Positions 1,976 to 39,948 of a stretch of 45,271 nucleotides of DNA are shown here, one piece after another. A program made the position numbers and the translations under genes. Position 1 is the stretch's first letter, and each line of letters begins with the position of its first letter. The stretch is from Acidobacteriota bacterium (GTDB taxonomy: Bacteria; Acidobacteriota; Vicinamibacteria; Vicinamibacterales; CAVVIG01): NCBI GenBank assembly GCA_025358945.1, contig JANYHS010000018.1:1-45271 (forward strand). The letters are read 5' to 3'. The notes below the pieces were generated by a model. That model was not told the origin of the DNA. It saw nothing but the letters and a program-made list of their open reading frames with translations, and did no database searches.

Positions 1976-4024
1976 TCAGTGAACCGACGAAGGTCCGGGG
2001 AAACCTGATCCGGGAAGGGTCAGGCGGAAACAGCATCCCGCCGCGGCCGGCATCAACTCCAGCTGACCCTGGTGCGCGCTGGCGATCCCGAGCGACAGCG
2101 ACAGGCCAAGGCCGGGGCCCGCGCCCTCGGACTTGGTCGTGAAGAACGGCTCGAAGATCTTGCCCGCCAGTGCCGCGGGAATACCCGGGCCGGTGTCGCG
2201 CACTTCGAGTACGGCGTCACCCGACGACATGAACGTGCGCACCGACAGCACGCGCACGGCGCCGAGGTTGGACATCGCCTGCTCGGCGTTCATGATGAGA
2301 TTCAGGATCACCTGCTGAATCTCTTCGCGATTGGCCAGGACGAGCGGCAGCATCGGCGCGTACTCTTCACGCACCTGAATACCGGCCATCTCCAGCTCGT
2401 AGGCCCGCACGCTCATCGTCGCTTTGACGATGTCGTTCAGATCCAGAAGCAGCCGTTCGTTCGGCGCCTGCCGGACGAAGCGCAGGAGATTGCGCACGAT
2501 ACGCCCTGCGCGTCCGGCTTCAAAGCGGGCGCGCTCCAGATCGGCGCGCATCGTCGGTTCGGGATGCTGATCGAGCGCCAGCTCGAGGGATCCGATCACC
2601 GTCTGCAACGGATTGTTGATCTCGTGCGCCACGCCGGAGACGAACTCACCAAGTGCGGATAAGCGCTCGCCGCGCACGAGCTGCTCGCGCAGCCGGAGTT
2701 CCTCGGTGATGTCGCGGATGACCGCGACAAAATATGTGATGCGACCGCCGCCATCCACGATCGGCGCCGCGACGCAGGCGGCCTGAAACGTCCCGCCGTC
2801 CTTGCGCGCCAGCGATGCGTTGACCCGCGTCACCTGTTTCGATTTCAGGCTTTTGTTGAACATCGGAATCGCGTCGGTCGACTCGGGCGCCACGAGCGCG
2901 CGCGGCGGCAGCGATTCGAGCTGTTCGTGCGTGTAGCCGGTGGCCCGGCAGAACGCGTCGTTCGCGTACTCGATCTGACTGTTGCGCCCGACGATGATGA
3001 CGAGATCGCCAGCCTGCTCGCAGGCGGTCGCCAGGAGGCGCAGACGCTGGTTTGCCTGTTCGCCGATCCGCTGCTCGACGCGCAGGCGGACGAGGACCAG
3101 GGCGATCCCGCAGACCAGCGTGCCGGCGGTCGCGACGTCGCGCAGCGTGTCCACTGGCTCGCCGAGCGGCATGAGGTATCGCAAGCCGTAGCCGACCACA
3201 GGCACGATGAGCAGCGCGACGAACAACAGGATCGGCGACGCCTGCTCCGTCGGCCGCGTCGCACTGGCTCGCGATTCCGTCGGTGACGCCGGCGACGTCG
3301 CCGCCGCCCATGCGGCAAACCAGAACGGCAGCATCCATCCGATATCAGCCGGCGATCCAGTCTGATAGTCACCACGGACAGCAAGCACGGAGAGCAGGAC
3401 GAGGATCGCGAACGCCAGCATCATCCCGTACGCGAGCCGCCGGTAGACCATCGCCCACGCGCTCTTGCCGGCGGCCACCGCGGCCAGCAGCAAGCCGGCG
3501 ACCGACGCCAGGCGGACGATCGGTCCCACGACCGCCAGCGATTGCAGCGCCAGCGCCGCATGCGCCGGATCGAGCCCAGGCGCAATGATCAGCGACCAGT
3601 ACAGAAAGCCCGTGAGAAACACGAGCACGATGATGTCGAGCGTCACCGTGATCGCCGCGTCCACCTGTGCGGGACGATGCGGCCACGCGGCGAGGGCGAT
3701 GAGCGGCAGCGCGGAGCCGGACAGTTGCAGCACGACGTGCCACCGGAACCACGGCAGCGACGACGCGCGGAATAGTTCGTCGGCGGCCCAGCCCAGCTGC
3801 CCGAGGAACCACAGCGCCGCCCACGCCCCGATGGCGCCCCAGAACACCGCCTGGCGCCCGCGCCAGTCGTGCCGCCGCGTCGCGAGCACGAACAACGGCG
3901 CGAGCGGAGGCAGGAGGAGGCCAATGTTGCCCAGCGTCATGCGCGCCGCGTCATGGCCGGCCACGCTCACCATGATCGCGGCGTACGCGCCGGAGTACAC
4001 CAGCCCCGCGACCGCCCAGTTCAT
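1976..4024 (-). CDS. Membrane-bound PAS sensor histidine kinase
   Basis: Two-component sensor of 682 residues. The start is the ATG at 4024, directly before the first membrane segment; 19 further open codons upstream look non-coding. Residues 1-320 hold about eight hydrophobic segments, so the sensory part lies in the inner membrane. A PAS domain follows (about 330-445; [14 protein letters not shown]), then the HisKA dimerisation helix with phospho-acceptor His467 in [10 protein letters not shown]. The HATPase domain has the N box [10 protein letters not shown] (573-582), G1 box DTGPGIP (610-616) and G2 box [11 protein letters not shown] (636-646). No response regulator is in the window, so the partner is unknown. 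The only downstream gene on this strand is the thiolase relic. Confidence 0.93.
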
Positions 4025-4133
4025 CGAGCTGCGCGCCCCATCGTCTTGAGTGTATCTCGAAGCCGGCAGGCCAGACTGCACGCCGTTGCCTCCGGCGCCG
4101 GCTCGATCGGCGGCTCTCCGTTCGAGTCGATGT

Positions 4134-4139
4134 TATAGT
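4134..4139 (+). promoter_or_regulatory. -10 box (TATAGT) for the PilZ gene
   Basis: TATAGT ends 8 bases before the PilZ start codon, so transcription would begin at or within a base or two of the ATG. No Shine-Dalgarno sequence lies in between. The message is probably leaderless. The -35 region is weak. Confidence 0.45.
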
Positions 4140-4147
4140 CGGGCCGA

Positions 4148-4495
4148 ATGGCTCCGGACGATAAGCGCGACACACACCGCTTGCAGATTCTTGGGGATCT
4201 GCACGGCGAGGTGATGGTGTTCCAGCCGATGGCGATCAAGGAAATCAGCCGCGGCGGCGCGCAGATCGAAACCGGATTTCCGCTCCACCTTGATTCACTA
4301 CACGACTTCCGGCTGACGCTCGGCGACCGTTCCCTCGTCGTCAAGGGCCGCGTGGTCCACTGCAGCATCACGGATGTGGAGCAGGAGCTGGTGCTCTATC
4401 GCGCGGGCATCGAGTTCATCGAGCCCTCCGAGCGCGTCGCGGCGGCGATCTCCGACTTCATCGACGCCGTCGAGAACGGACGTCGAGCCTTATAA
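4148..4495 (+). CDS. PilZ domain protein (cyclic-di-GMP binding)
   Basis: Small cytoplasmic protein of 115 residues consisting of a single PilZ domain. The c-di-GMP loop RxxxR is present as R7-D-T-H-R11. The second motif, usually (D/N)xSxxG, is present as EISRGG (residues 36-41), with Glu in place of Asp/Asn. The rest has the alternating strand pattern of a PilZ barrel, with VVKGRVVHC and YRAGIEFIEP near the end. It is a likely receptor for the c-di-GMP made by the GGDEF protein and removed by the HD-GYP proteins elsewhere in this window; its output partner is unknown. It stands alone, divergent from the histidine kinase and convergent with the peptidase. Confidence 0.85.
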   Translation: MAPDDKRDTHRLQILGDLHGEVMVFQPMAIKEISRGGAQIETGFPLHLDSLHDFRLTLGDRSLVVKGRVVHCSITDVEQELVLYRAGIEFIEPSERVAAAISDFIDAVENGRRAL

Positions 4496-4521
4496 AGAAG
4501 AAACCGCCGCGGTTCCTTCTT
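4495..4521. terminator. Bidirectional hairpin between PilZ and peptidase genes
   Basis: AAGAAGAAACCGC (4495-4507) pairs with GCGGTTCCTTCTT (4509-4521) with one mismatch. The A-rich left arm and T-rich right arm give a U-tract in both directions, so this hairpin can end both convergent genes. It overlaps the stop codons of both. Confidence 0.75.
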
Positions 4522-5911
4522 ATCTCCCCGGGTTGGTCTTGATGTCGGTGCTCGCGCGGGCGGGTGAGACGTAGGCGGTGACGAAGCTCTCGTGGCCGCC
4601 GGCATCGATCGACGCCACGCCGAAGACGTAGTCGTCGATCTGCATGTTGGGCAGAATCAGCGTCGTCACATTGCCGACGCGCACGTCATGCTGCCAGTCC
4701 GATCCCCATGCCTCGCGCCAGAAGACCCGGTACGCCGCGGCGCCGGGTGCCGCGGTCCACTTCAGGTTGGCGTCGTAGCCTGAGGGCGCGCGGGTGATCA
4801 TCGGCGCACCACGATCGCTCAACACGCCGGGCGGCGGCGGCGCAAGCGCCAGCGTGGCGGCAGACGCGGCGTTCACGCGCGCGTTCTGCGCCAGGTACGG
4901 CAGCGAGATCCCTTCGTAGGTGTCGCGCACGTCGTGCTGGCACGCGAAGTTCTCACGCGACTCGCGGAAACCGACGGCGGTGAAACCCAGCTGGTTGTAG
5001 GCGGAATGATCGCCGCCGCGGCCAAAGCGATCCGGCCGCGCCATCGGACGCACGGTGTGCGACGGCACGTATCGACCGCCCCAGCGCTGGACGAACCGCG
5101 CCAGTTCACGCGACGCCGAATCCTCCGGCCCCTCGGCATACACGCGAATTGTCGCGCCGTCGACAATGCCGTTGCCGCCCCGGTCGTTGCCGACGATGTC
5201 GTTGTTGAAGATCGCTTCGATCGGGATCTTCTCGGCGACGGCTTTCTGTGCGTGCAACCGCGCGCCAACGAGTCCCTGCTCTTCCCCGACATGGCACATG
5301 AACACCAGCGTCGCGTCGAAGTCGATGCCGCTCTGGCTGAACACGCGCGCCAGCTCAATGGTCAGCGCCGTCCCGCTGCCATCGTCGTTGACGCCGGGGG
5401 CGAAGGTGTCGAGCGGCGCGTTCGGGTCGACGGGCGGCGCGGGGCGCGCGTCGGGGTCGGCCGCAGGCGTCGGTGCGCCGGCATTCGCCGCACCCTGCCC
5501 GCGTGACGTCGCAAGCGTGTCGTAGTGGCCACTGATGTAGACCCGCCGCGGACTGCGACCCGGAAGCACCGCCATCACGTTGCGCAGCTCGACGTCGCGC
5601 GTGATGCGCCCCTGCGGCACGACCTGGTAGGTGTCAAAGCTGACCTGCAGCTTCGGGCTGTAGCCCCTCATCTCGTCGAGAATCCATTGCCGCGCCGCAC
5701 CAATGCCACGCGTCGTCGACGTCGTCGAGGACATCGTGCTGCGCGTCTCGAAGCTCTCGAGCTTTTTCAGGATCACGCCGAGCCGCTCTTCGGACACCGT
5801 CGCGACCAGGCGGACGACCCGTGGGTCGAGATCGCTGTCCTGCGCGCCGGCGCTCCGGCTGACGCCAGACACAACCAATACGAGACACACCATCAGCCGC
5901 CGTGCCGTCAT
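4520..5911 (-). CDS. Secreted M28 family zinc aminopeptidase with C-terminal FN3-like domain
   Basis: Exported metallopeptidase of 463 residues. A signal peptide (about residues 1-23, ending SAGAQ) precedes the peptidase domain. The two-zinc site is complete: His129 and Asp131 in SGHYDT, Asp in GVNDDGSG (173-180), Glu pair in HVGEEQG (207-213), Asp238 in NNDIVGND, and His in GGDHSAYN. A C-terminal part of about 85 residues (NLKWTAAPGAAAYRVFW onward) resembles a fibronectin type III fold and may bind substrate or the cell surface. Two ATGs (5914 and 5911) overlap the upstream stop. I chose 5911 because AGGGTG lies five bases before it but only two before the other. It is translationally coupled to the cyclotransferase-like gene. 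Confidence 0.92.
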   Translation of the reverse strand: MTARRLMVCLVLVVSGVSRSAGAQDSDLDPRVVRLVATVSEERLGVILKKLESFETRSTMSSTTSTTRGIGAARQWILDEMRGYSPKLQVSFDTYQVVPQGRITRDVELRNVMAVLPGRSPRRVYISGHYDTLATSRGQGAANAGAPTPAADPDARPAPPVDPNAPLDTFAPGVNDDGSGTALTIELARVFSQSGIDFDATLVFMCHVGEEQGLVGARLHAQKAVAEKIPIEAIFNNDIVGNDRGGNGIVDGATIRVYAEGPEDSASRELARFVQRWGGRYVPSHTVRPMARPDRFGRGGDHSAYNQLGFTAVGFRESRENFACQHDVRDTYEGISLPYLAQNARVNAASAATLALAPPPPGVLSDRGAPMITRAPSGYDANLKWTAAPGAAAYRVFWREAWGSDWQHDVRVGNVTTLILPNMQIDDYVFGVASIDAGGHESFVTAYVSPARASTDIKTNPGR

Positions 5912-11158: not shown

Positions 11159-11488
11159 ATGAAAACTGCCGAAGACGCGGACGCATTTCTGTCCCGCCTC
11201 ACACGAGGTGAAAAGGCGCGCCTGCTCCAGCGCGTGGCTCAGGATTTGGGCGATGCGTATCCCGGCATTGACGTCATCGACGAGGTCTGCGGTGGCGAGC
11301 CGATCATCGTCCGGACCCGTATCCCCGTCTGGCTGCTCGAACACGCCAGACGACTGGGGTCAAGCGAGGCGGATTTGCTTCGCTCCTATCCGGCGCTTCG
11401 AGCGGAGGACCTGGCCAATGCGTGGGCGTATGTCCGTTCGCATCGGGACCAGATCGCCGAGCAGATCCGCGGGCACGAAGCCGCGTGA
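11159..11488 (+). CDS. DUF433 domain protein, probable antitoxin
   Basis: A 109-residue protein whose core (GEPIIVRTRIPVWLLEHARR at about 43-62, then SSEADLLRSYPALRAEDL) is a DUF433 domain, a small winged-helix-like DNA-binding unit used by VapB-type antitoxins. The N-terminal 40 residues are an extra helical part. The next gene, six bases on, encodes a DUF5615 PIN-like protein, the standard partner of DUF433. The pair is therefore a candidate type II toxin-antitoxin module. DUF433 proteins usually also repress their own promoter, so self-regulation is likely but not shown here. Confidence 0.82.
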   Translation: MKTAEDADAFLSRLTRGEKARLLQRVAQDLGDAYPGIDVIDEVCGGEPIIVRTRIPVWLLEHARRLGSSEADLLRSYPALRAEDLANAWAYVRSHRDQIAEQIRGHEAA

Positions 11489-11494
11489 GCCACC

Positions 11495-11833
11495 GTGGCG
11501 CGATTTCTCGCTGACGAAAATTTTCCACTACCCGTCGTTGAAGAGCTGCGTCGTCTCGGCCATGACGTGCTGACAACCGCCGATGCCGGCAAGGCGGGCC
11601 AATCGATTGCCGATGAGGCAATCCTTGGTCTCGCGGCCGCGGAGGGTCGGACGCTCCTCACATTGAATCGGAAGCACTTCATCCGCCTGCACGCATCACA
11701 ACCGCGTCATGCGGGCATCGTCGCCTGCACGCTCGACCTCGACTTTGCTGGTCAGGCCGGGCGAATCCATGCCGCGATCACGCCACCGGCCGATCTTGCT
11801 GGTTGCCTCGTTCGCGTGAATCGCCCCGGCTAA
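11495..11833 (+). CDS. DUF5615 PIN-like protein, probable toxin nuclease
   Basis: A 112-residue protein with a PIN-like fold: the acidic site starts with FLADENFP (Asp6, Glu7), and continues through D in SIADEAILGLA (around 41) and LLTLNRKHF (around 54-62), which is the usual DUF5615 pattern ending TLDxDF. These proteins are thought to be Mut7-C/PIN-type RNases neutralised by a DUF433 or similar partner. The start is GTG at 11495, six bases after the antitoxin stop. The stop TAA shares CTAA with the stop of the opposite relic. Toxicity is inferred from the family, not shown. Confidence 0.82.
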   Translation: MARFLADENFPLPVVEELRRLGHDVLTTADAGKAGQSIADEAILGLAAAEGRTLLTLNRKHFIRLHASQPRHAGIVACTLDLDFAGQAGRIHAAITPPADLAGCLVRVNRPG

Positions 11834-21435: not shown

Positions 21436-23655
21436 GTGTCCCAGGTGTCCCAGCTGTCCCCTGAACTGTCGCGGGGTTTGCTGCACATGGCTCGCGCGCT
21501 GCTGGCCGCGGTGCGCAACTGGACGCTGTATCCGCCCGAACATCCCACCGTCCGCGCGTCGGTCGAGCGCCTCGCCGCCGCCCTCCAGGCATCGGAGCTG
21601 GGCGCGGCATTTGCCATCGGCGTGACGCCCGACACCCTGATGATCGAGGGCGCCGCCGCCGACAACAGCCAGACCGGCATCACCGAGGCGGCGGCGATGC
21701 TGCACGACCGGGACATCGTGTCGATCATGTTCGTGGGCGCGGTCCCGCCGGAGACCATCCACGCATTCCTCCGCATGCTCACGCTGGAACCCGCCGAACG
21801 CCGCGCGCGCGGCGGCCCCGCGCGCATCTGGGCCGACCAGGGCCATCCCTCGGTGACCATCGAGCAAATCGACTACTCGAAAGTCCTGGCGCGCGAAGAA
21901 GGCCCGGCCGCGGAGCCGGCCAAGCGCGACGATCTCTGGCGCTCGATCGTGATCTCGATCGCGGGCGGACAGAAAGCCATCTTCGACCAGCGCGCGCAGG
22001 AACGGCTGCTGGCGATCGCCGGCAGCGCCGCCAACATCGGCGATCTCGCCACCGCCGTCGCCGCGCCCAAGTGCACGCTCGACGGCTCGCCGATGATCAC
22101 GTCGCAGGCGGCCACCGTCCTCGCCGCGTTCCGCCACCTCTCCAGCATCGTCTCGGTGATGTCGCCCGATCGCCTGCCCGAGGTGATGACCAACCTGGCG
22201 ACCGCGGCCACGCAGCTCGACCCGCACGTCATCATGCAGCTGATGCAGAGTCCGGACGACCCCGGCAGCGTGCCGGTGATCGCCGGGATGGCGGCGGCGT
22301 TCGACGATGTGAAGGTCGCGCAGTTGCTGGCCACGGCGCTGGCGCTCGACGGCCAGGCCTCGGATCGCCTCGCCACTATCTTCAACACCATCGCGCCCGA
22401 CGAAGATCGCAAGCGCCGCGTCCTCACGCTGACCCGCAGCTTGCTCAGCGAAACTGATTTCGGCCGCTCCGGACAATTCCAGGTGCTGTGGGCGTCCACC
22501 GAAGAGCTGCTCGTCGCCTACAACGACAAAGCGTTCGTGTCCGACTCGTACCGCAACGCGCTCGACGGCGTCGGCGGACGGGCGGAGCGCATGTCGTCGG
22601 TCGATCTGCCCGACGAGCTGCCCGAGTGGATGGAGAGCCTCGGCCAGGCCAACGTCCGCGTGCTGTCGGTGACGATGTTGATCGATCTCTTCACGCTCGA
22701 GCAGGACCCGGCGCGGGCCGCCGACATGGCGCCCGACATGTCCGCGCTCGCCGAAGATCTGCTGATGTCCGGCGCCTACGACGACGCCCTGACCGTGACG
22801 CGGGCGCTGCAGACCCGCGCGTCGGCCCAGAAGAGCATCGGCAAAGAGGCGTGCCGGCGCGCGCTGGATGAACTCGGTGAGTCGCTCGCGATGCGCGAAA
22901 CGGTGGCGCTGATCGGTGACGTGGACGAGGACGGCTGGACGGGGATCAAGTCGGTGATCGACTCGATCGGCGTGTCCAGCGTCGAGGCGCTCAAGAGCGC
23001 CATCGCCGTCGAGCAGGACAACATCACCACCACCCGGGCGGAAGCGATCATTGCCGGATTCGGATCGAAGGCGGTGATGCGGCTGGCGTCGCTCGTCGGA
23101 GATTCGCGGTGGTTCGTCCAGCGGCGCGGCGCGCGGCTGCTCGGCAAGATCGGGACGGCGGACGCCGTGCCGCTCCTGCAACCGCTGCTTCGGCAGAGCG
23201 ACCCGCGTGTGGCGCGCGAAGCGGTCGCCGCGCTGGGCGTGATTCCGGATCCGGCGGCGGCCCGCGCCATCCAGACGGTGTTGCGAGCCGCGACCGGCGA
23301 CGTACGCCGCGCAGTCACCGACGCGCTGGTGGCCGAGAAAGATCCGCGCGTGGTGCCGATGCTCGTGCGCATCATCGAAGAAAGCGAAGCGCTCGGCAAG
23401 GACCACGAACTCGTGCTCGAAACGGTCGGGGCGCTCGGCACGGTCGGCACGGATGCCGCGGTATCCGTCCTCGTCACCGTCTCCCAGAAACGATCGTTCT
23501 TCGGCCGCAAGAAAGCACGCGCGCTCAAGGAACGCAGCGTGGATGCACTCGCCCGCGTCGGCACGGCCCGGTCGGCTGCCGCCCTGCAGGACGCGGCGAC
23601 CAAGGGCGATGGCATGTTGCGGAAGATTGCCGCACAGAAAGTCAGGGGCTCATGA
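21436..23655 (+). CDS. HEAT-repeat protein with LYxxxHP N-terminal domain (first of pair)
   Basis: A 739-residue cytoplasmic protein with no signal or membrane segment. Residues 10-155 form a domain with LYPPEHP (31-37), FAIGVTPDTLMIEG (59-72) and VTIEQIDYSKVL (140-151). A helical middle follows (about 165-510), then HEAT-type repeats (about 535-735; for example AVPLLQPLLRQSDPRVAREAVAALG without long gaps). The same N-domain opens the next three genes. HEAT solenoids bind partners, so I infer a scaffold or regulator for the adjacent HD-GYP enzyme. The start is GTG 21436, six bases after a -10 box; an ATG at 21487 is an alternative. First gene of a four-gene array. Confidence 0.85.
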   Translation: MSQVSQLSPELSRGLLHMARALLAAVRNWTLYPPEHPTVRASVERLAAALQASELGAAFAIGVTPDTLMIEGAAADNSQTGITEAAAMLHDRDIVSIMFVGAVPPETIHAFLRMLTLEPAERRARGGPARIWADQGHPSVTIEQIDYSKVLAREEGPAAEPAKRDDLWRSIVISIAGGQKAIFDQRAQERLLAIAGSAANIGDLATAVAAPKCTLDGSPMITSQAATVLAAFRHLSSIVSVMSPDRLPEVMTNLATAATQLDPHVIMQLMQSPDDPGSVPVIAGMAAAFDDVKVAQLLATALALDGQASDRLATIFNTIAPDEDRKRRVLTLTRSLLSETDFGRSGQFQVLWASTEELLVAYNDKAFVSDSYRNALDGVGGRAERMSSVDLPDELPEWMESLGQANVRVLSVTMLIDLFTLEQDPARAADMAPDMSALAEDLLMSGAYDDALTVTRALQTRASAQKSIGKEACRRALDELGESLAMRETVALIGDVDEDGWTGIKSVIDSIGVSSVEALKSAIAVEQDNITTTRAEAIIAGFGSKAVMRLASLVGDSRWFVQRRGARLLGKIGTADAVPLLQPLLRQSDPRVAREAVAALGVIPDPAAARAIQTVLRAATGDVRRAVTDALVAEKDPRVVPMLVRIIEESEALGKDHELVLETVGALGTVGTDAAVSVLVTVSQKRSFFGRKKARALKERSVDALARVGTARSAAALQDAATKGDGMLRKIAAQKVRGS

Positions 23656-23686
23656 CGCAGGGCTCAGGACTCAGGACTCAGGGCTG
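23648..23686. repeat. GGACTCA direct repeats between HEAT and HD-GYP genes
   Basis: CAGGGCTCAGGACTCAGGACTCAGGGCTGATGG contains GGCTCA, GGACTCA, GGACTCA and GGGCTGA in tandem. It straddles the stop of the HEAT gene and ends at the next start codon (ATG 23687), so it also takes the place of a ribosome-binding site (CTCAGGG). A related GGGCTGATGG string occurs at 31439-31448. Confidence 0.55.
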
Positions 23687-25042
23687 ATGGAGCAGAAAAA
23701 AGCCGAGGAGCTGATCAGGCGACTTGCCGCGGCGCTGCGAGGCACCGAGCTGTACTCGGCGGCGCATCCGCTCGTGCAGCGCGGCATCGACGCGTTCACG
23801 GCGGCCGCGCAGGACGGCTTGAAAGTCACGCCGTCGGTCGTCATCGGCTTCATCGGCGACGAAGTCGTCGTCGACGGGACGCGATTGCCGAAAGGCACGG
23901 CGTCGCTCATCGGATTCGCGCGCGATCTGCGGGACCGCGGCATCGAAAAAATCACGCTGACGCGCGGGCTGTCACGCACGGAGGTCGGCAGCCTGGTGGC
24001 GGCGTTCACCGACAAAGGCTCGCCGGTCCCGCTGCCCGAGCGGTTGATTACGCGCGGCGTCCGCAACGTCACGCTCGGCCGCATCATCGTCGACGACGTC
24101 AGCGACGATCAGGCGGGCATTGCCGCGGCCCGGCGCGTGTACAGCACGGCTGTGGAGACAGCGGAAAATCTCTGGAACGCGGCGAAAGCCGGCGATCAGC
24201 CTGACCCCGGCGCAGCGCGGAAGATCATCGACGGTCTCGCGCGCCTGGTCACGCAGGACCGGACGTCGCTGATGGCGCTGACCGCGCTGAAGAAGTACGA
24301 CAACTACACCTTCACCCACATGGTGAACGTATCGGCGCTGGCCATGGCGCAGGCGCGCGCACTGAACATCGACGGCCCGCTGCTGCGCGAGTTCGGATTC
24401 GCGGCGCTGATGCACGACATCGGCAAGGTCAGGACGCCGCTCGAAGTGCTGAACAAACCCGGCAAGCTGACCGGCGAAGAATTCGACATCATGAAGCGCC
24501 ACGTCATCGACGGCGCGCACATCCTGCGACGCACGCCGGAGATGCCGGCGCTGGCGCCGATTGTGGCCTTCGAGCATCACCTGAAGCAGGACCTGAGCGG
24601 ATATCCCGAGAAGATCGGCAGCCGACAGCTGAATCTCTGCACGATGATCGTGTCGATTGCCGACGTGTTTGACGCGCTGCGCAGTAACCGGCCGTACCGC
24701 GAAGGGATGGCGACCGTCCGCATCCGCAGCGTCATGGGCGAACAGGGCAACCCCGCGTTCAACCAGGTGCTGCTCAAGCGCTTCGTCAACCTGATGGGGC
24801 TGTTCCCGGTCGGCAATCTGGTGCGCCTCAATAAAGGCGAAGTGGCGGTCGTCACCGCCGAGCACCCGACCGATCCGTTCCGGCCGCAGGTCAAGATCCT
24901 GATGGATCCGTCGGGCGCCCTCATCGAAGATCCGCCGCTGGCGAACACCTGGGAACGAGACAGCCGCGGCGAGCACCCGCACGCGGTGGTCGAGGCCATC
25001 GATCCGGAGTCGGTCGACATCGACCCGCTGCAGTACCTGTGA
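23687..25042 (+). CDS. HD-GYP domain phosphodiesterase with LYxxxHP N-terminal domain (first)
   Basis: A 451-residue cytoplasmic enzyme predicted to hydrolyse cyclic-di-GMP. Residues 8-140 are the array's common N-domain: LYSAAHP (22-28), VVIGFIGDEVVVDG (51-64), VTLGRIIVDDV (128-138). The HD-GYP domain (about 195-400) keeps its metal ligands: His211, His243-Asp244 (LMHDIGKV), His272 and His297-His298, then SGYP (304-307) and SIADVFDALRS. One departure from the family pattern is DLSGYP where DGSGYP is usual. A C-terminal part of about 70 residues follows, with PVGNLVRLNKGEVAVV. The start is ATG 23687, since the upstream frame is repeat DNA. The stop forms TGATG with the next gene. Confidence 0.9.
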   Translation: MEQKKAEELIRRLAAALRGTELYSAAHPLVQRGIDAFTAAAQDGLKVTPSVVIGFIGDEVVVDGTRLPKGTASLIGFARDLRDRGIEKITLTRGLSRTEVGSLVAAFTDKGSPVPLPERLITRGVRNVTLGRIIVDDVSDDQAGIAAARRVYSTAVETAENLWNAAKAGDQPDPGAARKIIDGLARLVTQDRTSLMALTALKKYDNYTFTHMVNVSALAMAQARALNIDGPLLREFGFAALMHDIGKVRTPLEVLNKPGKLTGEEFDIMKRHVIDGAHILRRTPEMPALAPIVAFEHHLKQDLSGYPEKIGSRQLNLCTMIVSIADVFDALRSNRPYREGMATVRIRSVMGEQGNPAFNQVLLKRFVNLMGLFPVGNLVRLNKGEVAVVTAEHPTDPFRPQVKILMDPSGALIEDPPLANTWERDSRGEHPHAVVEAIDPESVDIDPLQYL

Positions 25043-27309
25043 TGTCCGGACTGCCCGACGCCTCCCTGCCGCTCGACGCCGCGGAGACGGCACAGCTGAT
25101 CGAATTCGCGCGCGCGTGCAAGGCCGCGGCTCGCGCGGTCACGCTCTATCCGAACGGTCATCCCGCAATCGCTTCGACGCTCGGACGAATCGTGCAGATC
25201 ACATCGTCGGGTGAACTGACCCAACCGCTGACGATCGGCGTCCTGCCCGACGGCCTCCAGATGACCGAGCGCGCGCCCGCGCGCATCGACAGCGCGATCA
25301 CCGAACTGGCGGCGCTGCTGCATAGCCATCTCATCGGCGAGCTGACCATTCATCCTGGCGGCGACGTCGAGTCCTGGCGCACGTTCCTGCTGCTGCTGGG
25401 ACGCTCGCCGGAATCGGTCCGCACCGACGGCGGCATCGCGCGCGTGTGGACGACGATGGCCGGCCGACACGTGGAGTTACGAGAGATCGACTACACCGAA
25501 GTCCTGCGCGAGCGCCTGGACGGCGAGTCGGCCCTCTGGACGCGCGTGATTGCCAATTGTCTCCAGGGCAGCGCCTTCGATGTCGACGAGTCGGGCATTC
25601 GCGAACTGCTCGGCATCGCGGCCGACAGCGAGAAACTCGCGGCCCTGATGGCGTCGCTCGAACGCAGCACCGATGGCAGCGGCGACGGCGGCGGCATCGG
25701 CCTCAAGGCTGCCGCGATGATGCGCATGCTCCGCGGCATCGTCGAGGTCGTCTCGAAAAAAGATCCGGAGCAGCTCGAGCCGGTCCTGAAACAGATGGCG
25801 ACCGCTGCCGGCCATTGCTCGCCCGACATGCTGATCGGCTTGATCCGCCAGTCGAGCGGCGACCAGGGTCCGCAGCTGATGCAAGCCGTCGTCGGCCGGA
25901 TGACGGACACCACCATTTCGCGGTTCGTCTCACGGCACGTGATCGCCGACGGAACGGCCACCGATCGCCTGGCGCAGGCGTTCCAGACGCTGGTGCGCGA
26001 CGGAGACGAGCAACAGCGCCTGCTCGCGATGGCGCGACACGACGTTGCCGAGTCGCCCCTGGGGAGCACGGACACCTTCGGGGAGCTGTGGGACACCGTC
26101 GCCGAGAAACTGCTGACGTCGTACTCCGACGCAACGTTCGTCTCGGAGTCGTACGGCAAGGAGTTGTCCGGTGCGCGGATGAAGGCGATCGACGTCGCCA
26201 GTACCAGCGACGACCCGCCGGAGCGCATCAGCGCCTGGCTCCGCACGATCGCCACGACGGCGCTGCGCGGCCTCGACCTGATGCTGATGATCGACCTGCT
26301 GAAGATCGAGCAGGACGAGCAACGCTGGCGCGAGTTGCTGACGCCGCTGGTCGGCCTGATCGAGGACCTCCTCCTGGTCGGCGACTTCGACGCGGCCTCG
26401 GAGTCGATCGCCGTCCTGGTGACCGCCGGCGGCGCCGGGACGCCGTCGCGGCGGCAACTCGCGCTGACGGCGATCGACGTCCTGCTGGCCGGCTCGATGA
26501 TGCGCCACGTGACGACGCACCTGGCGACGCTGGACGAAGCGCAGTTCGAACGCGTCAAGGTGATGAGTGTGTCGCTTGGCGAAGTGTTCGTGCGCCCGCT
26601 GGCGGAAGCCTTGTCGGTCGAGGACCGGCCGCGCACGCGGGAGCGGCTGACCTCCATCCTGCTGGCGTTCGGCTCGGTGGGGCGCCGCACCATCGAGCGG
26701 CTGAAGAATTCGCACAACCCCGCCGTGCGCCGCACCGCGATCCAGCTGATGCGGCAATTCGGCGGCGACGAAGCGCTGCCGGATCTGACGGAGCTGCTCG
26801 ACGACAACGAACCGCAGGTGCAGCGCGAGGCCGTGCGAGCGATTCTGAACGTCGGCACGGACGCGGCCTACCGCATCCTCGAGCAGGCGCTCGCCAGCGG
26901 CACGGCGCAGTCACGCGACGCGATCATGCAGTCGATCGGCCGTGTGCGCGACGAACGCGCGACGCCGCTGTTTGCCTATATCCTGGGCCACATCGACCAT
27001 CGCGGCGCGTTGGCGCCGATCTACCTGCGCGCGATAGAGTCGCTTGGCGCGCTGCGCGATCCGGGAGGCATTGCGCCGCTGCGCGAGGTGCTCTACAAGG
27101 GCGAATGGTGGGCGCCGAGACGCACCGGCGCCACGCGCAGCGCGGCCGCGTCGGCGCTGGCGCGCATCGGTACCGCGGACGCGTTTGCCGTGCTCGATGA
27201 GGCCGTCGCCCGCGGCTCACGTGGTGTCCGATCCGCGGCGCGCGCGCAACTGTCCGCCAGCCGCACGCGCCGCCCCGCTGCCCGTCCACCGGAGGAGCAC
27301 CAGGCATGA
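25042..27309 (+). CDS. HEAT-repeat protein with LYxxxHP N-terminal domain (second of pair)
   Basis: A 755-residue cytoplasmic protein, paralogue of the gene at 21436 (similar length, order and end). N-domain: LYPNGHP (35-41), LTIGVLPDGLQM (63-74), VELREIDYTEVL (144-155). The HEAT repeats cover about 545-740, including LPDLTELLDDNEPQVQREAV. Both HEAT proteins end with an aromatic/basic stretch (SFFGRKKAR in the first, EWWAPRRTG here) followed by ALARVGT/ALARIGT, good evidence of common descent. The start ATG 25042 overlaps the HD-GYP stop. Overall the two copies are diverged, so the duplication is old. Function inferred as a partner of the HD-GYP enzymes. Confidence 0.85.
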   Translation: MSGLPDASLPLDAAETAQLIEFARACKAAARAVTLYPNGHPAIASTLGRIVQITSSGELTQPLTIGVLPDGLQMTERAPARIDSAITELAALLHSHLIGELTIHPGGDVESWRTFLLLLGRSPESVRTDGGIARVWTTMAGRHVELREIDYTEVLRERLDGESALWTRVIANCLQGSAFDVDESGIRELLGIAADSEKLAALMASLERSTDGSGDGGGIGLKAAAMMRMLRGIVEVVSKKDPEQLEPVLKQMATAAGHCSPDMLIGLIRQSSGDQGPQLMQAVVGRMTDTTISRFVSRHVIADGTATDRLAQAFQTLVRDGDEQQRLLAMARHDVAESPLGSTDTFGELWDTVAEKLLTSYSDATFVSESYGKELSGARMKAIDVASTSDDPPERISAWLRTIATTALRGLDLMLMIDLLKIEQDEQRWRELLTPLVGLIEDLLLVGDFDAASESIAVLVTAGGAGTPSRRQLALTAIDVLLAGSMMRHVTTHLATLDEAQFERVKVMSVSLGEVFVRPLAEALSVEDRPRTRERLTSILLAFGSVGRRTIERLKNSHNPAVRRTAIQLMRQFGGDEALPDLTELLDDNEPQVQREAVRAILNVGTDAAYRILEQALASGTAQSRDAIMQSIGRVRDERATPLFAYILGHIDHRGALAPIYLRAIESLGALRDPGGIAPLREVLYKGEWWAPRRTGATRSAAASALARIGTADAFAVLDEAVARGSRGVRSAARAQLSASRTRRPAARPPEEHQA

Positions 27310-28667
27310 GCGCGCCCCGCTTCCAGCTCGCCGACGATCTCCTGCGACGTTTCGCCGCCTCGCTGCGATCGGCGCAGCTCTACTCGCCCGGACACCCGAT
27401 CATCGGGCGCAACCTCGACGCGCTGTCGTCCGCGTTCCAGTTGCTGCACAGCCTGCAGCCGGCGGTCACCATCGGTCTGGTCGGCGACGAAGTGATCGTC
27501 GACGACATGCCGATGGCGAAGGCGGACACCTTCGGTCCGTTCGTCCGGCGGCTGCAGCAGAGCGGCATCGAGCGGATGACGATCGATCGTGGGGTCACGC
27601 TCGACGAGATCGCCGAGTTCCTCGCCGCACTGATGGCGCTCGACGCCCGGGACCCCGGCGCCGCGACTGCGTTCCCGCCGCTCCCCCACGTCCGCGTCGG
27701 GCGCGTCTCCGTCGAGCAGCGCGTCGCGGGCAGCGTCACCGACATGGCGACGATCAAACGGCTCTACTCCGATGCCGTCACGCTCGCCAGCGAGATCTGG
27801 GACAGCGCGGAGACCGAGGGACATCCGGACGCGACCGCGGCGCGGTCGATGATCGACGGCCTCGCGCAGGCCGTGGCGCAGAACCGCACTGCGCTGTTGG
27901 CGCTGACGACACTGAAGAACTACGACAACTACACGTTCACACACATGGTGAACGTGTCGATCCTGACGATGGGCCAGGCGCGCGGGCTGGGAGTCGACGG
28001 CCCGCTGCTGCGCGAGTTCGGCCTCGCCGCGCTGATGCACGACATCGGGAAAGTTCGCACGCCGCTCGAAGTGCTGAACAAACCGGACGCGCTGACGGAC
28101 GCGGAGTTCACGATCATGAAGCGCCACGTCGTGGACGGCGCTGAAATCCTGCGCACGACGCCGGACATTCCGGCGTTGGTGCCGATTGTCGCGTTCGAGC
28201 ATCACCTGCGTATTGACGGATCCGGATATCCGTCCGGCGTCACCCGGCCCTCGCTCAACGTCGGCACGATGCTGTGCAGCATCGCCGACGTCTACGACGC
28301 CATGCGATCGCAGCGCCATTACCAGCAGGCGTTTCCCACCGACCGCATTCTTGCGGTATTGAAGCGCAACGACGGAACGCAGTTCGATCAGCATCTCGTT
28401 CGCCGCTTCGTGCAACTCATCGGCATCTATCCGGTGGGCAATCTGGTGCGCCTCAACACCGGCGAGATCGCCGTCGTCATGAACGAGTACGCGCCCGATC
28501 CGTATCGCCCCCACGTGCGCGTGCTGATCGACCGTGACGGCTCACGCCTCGATGCGCCCTACGAAGTGAACCTGTGGGACCCCGGCGACGATCCGCGGCG
28601 CCCGGGCGCCATTGCCGCGCCGGTCGATCCGGCGGGCTACGCGTTCGACCCGCTGCTGCTGATGTAA
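27306..28667 (+). CDS. HD-GYP domain phosphodiesterase with LYxxxHP N-terminal domain (second)
   Basis: A 453-residue paralogue of the gene at 23687. N-domain: LYSPGHP (25-31), VTIGLVGDEVIVDD (54-67), VRVGRVSVEQR (129-139). HD-GYP ligands are complete: His213, His245-Asp246, His274, His299-His300, and the canonical DGSGYP (304-309). The C-terminal part has PVGNLVRLNTGEIAVV, matching the first copy. The two enzymes are strongly alike in the catalytic half (TLKNYDNYTFTHMVNVS versus ALKKYDNYTFTHMVNVS) and looser in the N-domain. The start ATG overlaps the HEAT stop (ATGA). No membrane segment, receiver or GAF domain, so the N-domain is the likely input or docking part. Confidence 0.92.
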   Translation: MSAPRFQLADDLLRRFAASLRSAQLYSPGHPIIGRNLDALSSAFQLLHSLQPAVTIGLVGDEVIVDDMPMAKADTFGPFVRRLQQSGIERMTIDRGVTLDEIAEFLAALMALDARDPGAATAFPPLPHVRVGRVSVEQRVAGSVTDMATIKRLYSDAVTLASEIWDSAETEGHPDATAARSMIDGLAQAVAQNRTALLALTTLKNYDNYTFTHMVNVSILTMGQARGLGVDGPLLREFGLAALMHDIGKVRTPLEVLNKPDALTDAEFTIMKRHVVDGAEILRTTPDIPALVPIVAFEHHLRIDGSGYPSGVTRPSLNVGTMLCSIADVYDAMRSQRHYQQAFPTDRILAVLKRNDGTQFDQHLVRRFVQLIGIYPVGNLVRLNTGEIAVVMNEYAPDPYRPHVRVLIDRDGSRLDAPYEVNLWDPGDDPRRPGAIAAPVDPAGYAFDPLLLM

Positions 28668-28677: not shown

Positions 28678-30285
28678 GTGAAAACCATAGCCGTCCTCGC
28701 CGCGCTGGTGGTGCTGTCCACACCCCGCTTTCATGCGCAGACGCCCACCCGGCCGAAGCTCGCCGTCATCATCGTCGTCGATCAGATGCGCGCCGACTAC
28801 GTCGACCGCTTCAATGGCGAGTGGACAGGCGGCCTCAAGCGGATGGTGACGCAGGGCGCCTGGTTTCAGAATGCGGCGTATCCGTACCTGACCACGGTGA
28901 CGTGCGCCGGGCACGCAACGATTTCGACGGGATCGTTCCCGCCCACGCACGGCGTATTCCAGAACTCCTGGTGGGATCGCGACGCGCGGAAACAGATGAC
29001 GTGCACTGAGGATCCGCGCGCGAACGACGTCGGCTACGGCGTGACCGTGACCGGCGGCGACAGCCCGCAGCGGCTGCTGGTGCCGACCTTCGGCGATCAG
29101 ATGCGTGAAAGCCGCCAGGCGCACGTCGTGTCGCTGTCGCTCAAGGATCGCAGCGCGATCATGCTCGGCGGACACGGTGGCGACGCCGTCACATGGTTGA
29201 CCAATACACTCGACGGCTGGGAGACTTCGTCGGCCTACTCGCAGACGACAGTGCCCGCGGTGAAGGCCTTCGTCGACGCCAACCCGATCACCGCCGATTT
29301 CGGCAAGACGTGGACGCGCATGCTGCCGCCGACGTCGTACTCGGGTTCCGACGATGGTCTTGGCGAAGCGCCACCGCAGGGGTGGACGCGGACGTTTCCG
29401 CACGCGCTGAAGGGTTTGGCGACGACCGCGGACGCGGCGTACTTCCAGCAGTGGGAGCGCAGCCCGTACGCCGACGCGTACCTCGGGCGATTCGCCGCGG
29501 CGCTGGTGCAGTCGATGCAACTCGGCAGACATGACGGCACCGACGTGCTCGCCGTCAGTTTTTCGAGCCCCGACCTGGTCGGCCACGCGTTCGGTCCGAG
29601 CAGCCACGAGGTGCAGGACATCTACGCACGGCTCGATCTGACGATCGGCGCGCTGTTCGATCAGCTCGATGCCGTCGTCGGCAAGGATCAATGGGTGGCC
29701 GGGCTCACCGCCGATCACGGCGTGACGCCGATTCCCGAACAGCTGGTGGCGGAAGGCAAGGACGCGGGACGCATCAGCGGCAGCGAGATTGTCGTGGCGA
29801 TCGAGCGGGCGCTGAAGCCGGCACTCGGCGAAGGACGCCACGTCACGGTGCTCAATACGAACGATATTTATTTCGAGCCGGGCGTCTACAAGAAGATCGA
29901 ACAGACCAAGGGCCTGATCGGCAGCGTCATTTCGGCGATCGAAGCGCGTCCCGGCGTGCGGCGCGCGTTTCGCAGCGAGCAGGCGCGCGACGGCGCGAAG
30001 TCGAGCGACCCGCTGTTACGCGCGGCGGCGCTCAGCTACGTTCCGGGCCGCAGCGGCGACATCATCTTTGCGGCGAAACCGGGATGGATGATCTCCTCCG
30101 CAGGCACGACGCACGGGTCCGCAACACCAGATGATCAGCGCGTGCCGCTCCTGTTCCTCGGCCAGGGCATCAGGCCCGGCGCCTATCAGCAGCCGGCGAC
30201 GCCGGCCGATCTCGCGCCAACCCTCGCGGTGATTTCGGGCCTGTCGATGAAAGCGGAAGGCCGCCCGCTGCCATGCGTCAAATAG
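28678..30285 (+). CDS. PafA-type alkaline phosphatase family protein, secreted
   Basis: Periplasmic phosphomonoesterase of the alkaline phosphatase superfamily, 535 residues. A signal peptide (residues 1-20, ending FHA) precedes the catalytic domain. Two-metal site: Asp35 (VVDQMRADY), the nucleophile Thr in LTTVTCAGHATI (71-82), Asp and His in SSPDLVGHAFGP, Asp-His in LTADHGVTPIP and a last His in TTHGSATP. This motif order matches the calcium-tolerant, Thr-nucleophile PafA enzymes that free phosphate from organic phosphomonoesters. GTG 28678 is the start, placing the signal peptide at the N-terminus. The MGMT-like gene starts inside its last codons. Confidence 0.92.
   Translation: MKTIAVLAALVVLSTPRFHAQTPTRPKLAVIIVVDQMRADYVDRFNGEWTGGLKRMVTQGAWFQNAAYPYLTTVTCAGHATISTGSFPPTHGVFQNSWWDRDARKQMTCTEDPRANDVGYGVTVTGGDSPQRLLVPTFGDQMRESRQAHVVSLSLKDRSAIMLGGHGGDAVTWLTNTLDGWETSSAYSQTTVPAVKAFVDANPITADFGKTWTRMLPPTSYSGSDDGLGEAPPQGWTRTFPHALKGLATTADAAYFQQWERSPYADAYLGRFAAALVQSMQLGRHDGTDVLAVSFSSPDLVGHAFGPSSHEVQDIYARLDLTIGALFDQLDAVVGKDQWVAGLTADHGVTPIPEQLVAEGKDAGRISGSEIVVAIERALKPALGEGRHVTVLNTNDIYFEPGVYKKIEQTKGLIGSVISAIEARPGVRRAFRSEQARDGAKSSDPLLRAAALSYVPGRSGDIIFAAKPGWMISSAGTTHGSATPDDQRVPLLFLGQGIRPGAYQQPATPADLAPTLAVISGLSMKAEGRPLPCVK

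Positions 30286-37816: not shown

Positions 37817-39948
<2,132 letters not shown>

Follow-up and report, generated by a model that had tools for sequence, protein, structure and literature searches.

A 45,271-nucleotide stretch of Acidobacteriota DNA (assembly GCA_025358945.1, contig JANYHS010000018.1; the whole stretch is hereafter the window) carries four consecutive forward-strand genes that alternate between a HEAT-repeat protein and an HD-GYP phosphohydrolase. Above the Pfam cut-offs, HEAT repeats were found only in the first and third products (HEAT1 and HEAT2), and HD or HD_5 domains only in the second and fourth (HD1 and HD2). All four, regardless of class, begin with a common N-terminal domain (ND) of approximately 140 residues. 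This alternation, and the joining of the genes by a 31-base repeat, a TGATG and an ATGA, had been described by a first-pass annotation of the same DNA, and both were found in the sequence as it had stated. The features of the locus are as follows.

21436..23655, + strand: HEAT1, ND and an all-helical HEAT solenoid, 739 amino acids (HEAT_2 E 2.7e-14, Pfam)
21457..21897, + strand: ND of HEAT1 (ND profile E 1.8e-41; topology H-H-E-E-H-E-H-E)
23656..23686, + strand: spacer between HEAT1 and HD1, 31 bases of ACTCAGG-type repeats (sequence)
23687..25042, + strand: HD1, ND and an HD-GYP phosphohydrolase, 451 amino acids (HD_5 E 2.6e-18, HD E 1.5e-15; translation)
23687..24106, + strand: ND of HD1 (ND profile E 9.8e-37)
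25042..27309, + strand, with an alternative GTG start at 25039: HEAT2, ND and a HEAT solenoid (HEAT_2 E 4.8e-20)
25078..25512, + strand: ND of HEAT2 (ND profile E 4.5e-40)
27306..28667, + strand: HD2, ND and an HD-GYP phosphohydrolase, 453 amino acids (HD_5 E 3e-21)
27309..27725, + strand: ND of HD2 (ND profile E 9.9e-37; AlphaFold2 (AF2) predicted local distance difference test (pLDDT) 89.8, predicted template modelling score (pTM) 0.82)
27933..28397, + strand: HD-GYP catalytic domain of HD2, with the HD dyad, HH and DGSGYP (Pfam HD/HD_5 envelopes; metal ligands aligned to PmGH)

The start of HD1 was placed at the ATG at 23687, rather than at the 23453 of an over-extended mechanical open reading frame (ORF), because the N-terminal homology begins there. 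HEAT2 has 755 residues from the ATG at 25042, or 756 from the GTG at 25039. The TGATG overlap between HD1 and HEAT2 lies at 25040-25044, and the ATGA overlap between HEAT2 and HD2 at 27306-27309. A 17-base string of the spacer repeat occurs once in the genome, and hence the repeat is a local feature.

The HEAT/HD-GYP pair as a conserved unit

In at least three phyla, the HEAT gene and the HD-GYP gene are kept together as a two-gene unit. Across 199 Acidobacteriota genomes, searched with HD2 and HEAT1 as queries, HEAT genes were found directly upstream of the HD-GYP gene in many families, and at 42 of the 46 loci encoding an ND-HD-GYP protein; of the four exceptions, L089 and L084 were over-extended ORFs. 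A scan of named genomes covered 80 loci from Nitrospirota, Geobacter, Trichlorobacter, Desulfuromonas, Aminicenantes (placed in the Acidobacteriota by GTDB) and Acidobacteria gp7, and was dominated by Nitrospirota and Thermodesulfobacteriota. There, the HEAT gene was upstream at 73 of 77 ND-HD-GYP loci, with the remaining four cut by contig ends. The corresponding count for control HD-GYP genes lacking ND was 0 of 7. Spacing within the pair is tight, with the HD start codon no more than 20 bp from the HEAT stop in 70/74 loci, 25 of which start in a 4-base overlap. The phyla sampled for ND were Acidobacteriota, Nitrospirota and Thermodesulfobacteriota; the domain was found in 47 of 149 Acidobacteriota genomes by profile search, and in 65 of 148 genomes of the Trichlorobacter phylum (Thermodesulfobacteriota at NCBI). 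Gene order in relatives, which the first-pass annotation had named as a point on which its reading could fail, is therefore conserved in three phyla. The neighbourhood outside the pair varies between orders, and hence genes beyond the pair were not used to assign function.

The same annotation had regarded all four genes as one system of two pairs. Two pairs are indeed present, but the unit is a single HEAT/HD-GYP pair, of which the tandem arrangement here is, judging from the trees, a duplication. The HD and HEAT trees are congruent, and both separate pair 1 (G000, G107 and G167) from pair 2; hence the pair was duplicated as a unit, with pair 1 missing in some lineages. The full-length identities, 50% between HD1 and HD2 and 28% between HEAT1 and HEAT2, likewise show the duplication. 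ND is present in 25 of the 27 genomes of the window's family, and ten of the 27 have the HEAT-HD-HEAT-HD array on a single contig, as recognised by spacing and frame; in several more the array is interrupted by contig ends, and further genomes contain a single pair. Two tandem pairs likewise occur on the Nitrospirota contig L127. The first HEAT gene of that array (2844-5014) is split over two reading frames, through either a pseudogene or a sequencing error.

The shared domain and the two halves of the pair

The homology of ND across the HEAT and HD-GYP classes is firm. The motifs LYPPEHP, LYSAAHP, LYPNGHP and LYSPGHP were found in the four proteins, and across 45 ND sequences from both classes the YPxxHP motif retained its Tyr in 45/45, its His in 44 and its Pro in 43. 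BLASTP matched proteins across the classes (HEAT1-HD1, E 1e-4; HEAT1-HD2, E 2e-4; HEAT2-HD2, E 0.01), and all six comparisons of the N-regions scored above all 500 shuffles, the weakest being HD1-HEAT2 (z 4.2). Aligning HD-side with HEAT-side ND profiles using hhalign, with relatives from the phylum included, gave a probability of 99.65% over 140 columns, and an E-value of 5e-25 that is the value for one single comparison. A chance or compositional likeness was ruled out by the shuffles and this E-value. Hence the original proposal of a domain common to scaffold-like and enzyme proteins stands.

AF2 models of one HD protein (HD2) and one HEAT protein (HEAT1), made from different alignments and compared by the order of their elements, have the same predicted topology in their ND, rather than the different folds that had been entertained as a refutation. 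The elements are H2-24, H30-47, E52-58, E61-64, H76-84, E89-93, H98-113 and E128-131 in HD2, and H9-31, H37-52, E58-63, E68-70, H80-91, E94-100, H105-115, two short extra helices and E140-144 in HEAT1. No Pfam or NCBIfam family matched more than 1 of the 45 ND members, and the N-region of the HD-GYP proteins had no match to an unrelated known family in these databases. Fold searches of the PDB with ND gave no clear relative, whether by Foldseek (best E 1.1) or by VIA-align (best Z 6.5 over 69 residues at 3.3 Å); these searches may have missed a known fold, and no fold is claimed for ND. By sequence, the best PDB match (E 0.0035) covered a short segment of a designed protein.

Beyond ND, the HEAT1 model (mean pLDDT 86) is all-alpha, and its Foldseek matches were alphaRep, importins and the PP2A A subunit. 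Both HEAT1 and HEAT2 exceed the Pfam cut-off for HEAT_2. Neither cut-off for the PBS-lyase/NblB families was reached (36 bits against 300 for NblB, and 22.5 against 330 for CpcE), the likeness being confined to the repeats. No membrane segment was evident in the proteins of the pair.

The closest solved relatives of the HD proteins are PmGH and V-cGAP3, with the match covering the HD part only (HD2 against PmGH 4mcw, E 3.5e-27). One of the eight PmGH metal ligands, E185, is replaced by Tyr, and the other seven are conserved. Across 33 HD sequences, H213, H245, D246 and D331 are invariant, H274, H299, H300 and K249 are each present in 31, and the Tyr of GYP is retained in 26. The HHExxDGxGYP string is partly kept. 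Because of the Tyr at the E185 position, the HD proteins were assigned to the Y/F subfamily of HD-GYP proteins, a large natural group for which Bellini et al. predicted a binuclear site (PMC4159591); the site of the proteins here is probably binuclear. They are predicted to be phosphodiesterases of cyclic di-GMP (c-di-GMP). PmxA of Myxococcus xanthus prefers 3',3'-cyclic GMP-AMP (3',3'-cGAMP; PMC8844925), so the latter may also be a substrate. No REC domain was found in HD1 or HD2 by Pfam and NCBIfam, and a NosR-family NCBIfam model matched the HD part below its cut-off.

Fusions of ND-HEAT to other signalling domains

The strongest functional clue is the set of proteins to which ND-HEAT is fused. 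In one type, GGDEF, AAA_16, one or two NDs and HEAT form a single chain (L219, L292, L293, L298 and L301). L219, from the Acidobacteriota, reaches the contig end ahead of any HEAT part; the other four come from the phylum of Trichlorobacter. The literal string GG[DE]EF is present in L219, and was not found in the fusion proteins of this second phylum. In the other type, ND and HEAT are joined to a cyclic nucleotide monophosphate (cNMP)-binding domain and PilZ (L296, L297 and L303). Together with the pair, these fusions therefore tie ND-HEAT to proteins with domains for the synthesis, breakdown and reception of c-di-GMP. The first-pass annotation had raised the question of whether ND always accompanies HEAT or HD-GYP. 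The fusions to GGDEF and AAA, and to cNMP-binding and PilZ domains, mean that ND-HEAT is not confined to HEAT/HD-GYP pairs.

The large GGDEF-AAA_16 fusion proteins have an unusual cyclase architecture, present in two phyla. At L292 two long ND-ND-HEAT genes adjoin, with GGDEF and AAA_16 shown on one of them, and in L222-L224 a PilZ-like tail, weak in Pfam, follows the HEAT part.

The genome of the window has seven GGDEF matches and several PilZ matches, with one of each inside the window: a GAF-GGDEF diguanylate cyclase (38869-39948, -), beside apparent mreB/mreC/mreD cell-shape genes named from reading of the sequence, and a small PilZ protein (4148-4495, +; E 1.2e-7). Elsewhere in the window, a PafA-like alkaline phosphatase (28678-30285, +; 365 bits, below the cut-off of 650) starts 10 bases past HD2, and adjoining DUF433 and DUF5615 genes (11159-11833, +) resemble a toxin-antitoxin pair.

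A proposed module and its place among known systems

We consider it reasonably probable that each pair constitutes a soluble two-protein cyclic-dinucleotide module, in which a HEAT scaffold recruits or gates the HD-GYP enzyme, probably via ND. The complex would be cytoplasmic, with the HEAT solenoid recruiting, placing or gating the phosphodiesterase upon engagement of a protein partner or another input. ND would be the likely contact between the two proteins. Its most likely role is homotypic docking, ND to ND, with the sensing of a common ligand or target as the second choice. ND-HEAT could then be a portable regulatory module, acting in cis with GGDEF and AAA, or with cNMP-binding and PilZ domains, in relatives, while the duplicated pairs would provide two parallel channels in this lineage. 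The homology of the domain, the pairing of the genes, their duplication as a unit, the conservation of active-site residues and the fusion architectures are shown by the data; we infer the gating, substrate and input, and also the docking, the latter from the shared domain and strict adjacency only. More tentatively, ND may be the homotypic docking domain that defines a new class of cyclic-dinucleotide modules built on a HEAT scaffold, serving a phosphodiesterase in trans and a cyclase or PilZ receptor in cis across at least three phyla; we regard this broader proposal as possible rather than probable.

Several points weigh against this interpretation, besides the reliance of the profile E-value on a single comparison. 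Firstly, adjacent proteins may also carry homologous domains because they share a ligand, rather than because they dock. Secondly, ND-HEAT genes without an adjacent ND-HD-GYP gene exist in several families; these orphans (L239-L246 and L253, mostly from family f30 of the Acidobacteriota) mostly lack any other ND found in the genome. Hence ND is not obligatorily paired, and HEAT may have other partners. Thirdly, the tandem NDs of the cyclases were considered as one enzyme-type and one HEAT-type domain, but ND1 and ND2 do not sort in this way, and therefore the pair of NDs in cis does not mirror the two-gene pair. Fourthly, HD1 departs from the canonical signature, with DLSGYP in place of the DGxGYP matched by the DGSGYP of HD2, and both HD1 and HD2 lack the E of HHE.

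The main rival to docking is that ND senses a small molecule or effector in parallel on the HEAT and HD-GYP proteins, which would respond to the same cue without ND docking. The presence of the same domain on both proteins fits this, as does its N-terminal location, the usual place of sensor domains in HD-GYP proteins; ND-HEAT orphans and single-ND cyclases exist, and the invariant YPxxHP could line a pocket, or merely shape a helix turn. However, the near-strict adjacency of ND-HEAT and ND-HD-GYP exceeds the needs of parallel sensing, and no known ligand-binding fold was found in the PDB fold searches, making this the less favoured, and on balance unlikely, explanation. We think it improbable that the HD-GYP proteins are inactive, being regulatory, nucleotide-binding or degenerate, with the HEAT protein as the true output scaffold: the Tyr at the E185 position, the loss in HD1 of the first Gly of DGxGYP, and the record of inactive HD-GYP proteins such as Bd1817 (PMC4159591) are set against the near-invariance of the other seven metal ligands and Lys225 equivalent, the frequent retention of the GYP Tyr, and the size of the Y/F subfamily. 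A role in defence, or in another pathway outside c-di-GMP-type signalling, is very improbable, as although HEAT proteins occur in defence systems, and the PADLOC model HEAT-ARM_XIII weakly matches HEAT1 (E 6e-8), this match is limited to the repeats, and the module, unlike variable defence islands, is present in 25 of the 27 genomes of the window's family with congruent trees, besides its fusions to proteins with GGDEF and PilZ domains. That the four genes are ordinary, unrelated HEAT and HD-GYP genes, as might be supposed from the commonness of both domains and the low pairwise ND identity between classes (about 20-29%), is already refuted by the hhalign result, the shuffles, the pairing in three phyla and the congruent trees.

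How single c-di-GMP enzymes receive their own inputs and stay insulated from one another is a long-standing question. A widespread, self-contained two-gene unit, with a scaffold partner and a shared domain that has no name, makes partner specificity open to direct binding and swap tests, with the two paralogous pairs allowing such swaps between them. In bacteria of soils and sediments, many HEAT-repeat genes have no assigned function, and for these the unit also offers a testable pathway assignment.

No paper describing a HEAT/HD-GYP pair or system was found in the open-licence literature searched, in agreement with the earlier view that no system of this composition had been described. Relative to the HD-GYP phosphodiesterases (PmGH, 4mcw; V-cGAP3, 5z7c; the Y/F subfamily, PMC4159591), the enzymes here share the HD dyad, HH, GYP and seven of eight metal ligands, whereas their front domain is ND, which matches no described sensor family, and their genes go together with that of a HEAT partner. 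RpfG-type REC-HD-GYP regulators similarly have a regulatory domain ahead of their HD-GYP output, but here REC is lacking, and the input appears to come via a HEAT protein with the same front domain. PmxA is likewise an HD-GYP enzyme, although it shares its operon with genes for a FecR-domain lipoprotein and a LysM protein, in place of the HEAT protein here (PMC8844925). The PP2A A subunit and other HEAT scaffolds also place a HEAT solenoid beside a hydrolase, an analogy that implies no claim of common descent, as the pair described here has a different enzyme, and ND on both proteins. Hence it looks like a known class of enzyme, combined with a domain and a HEAT partner that are both undescribed.

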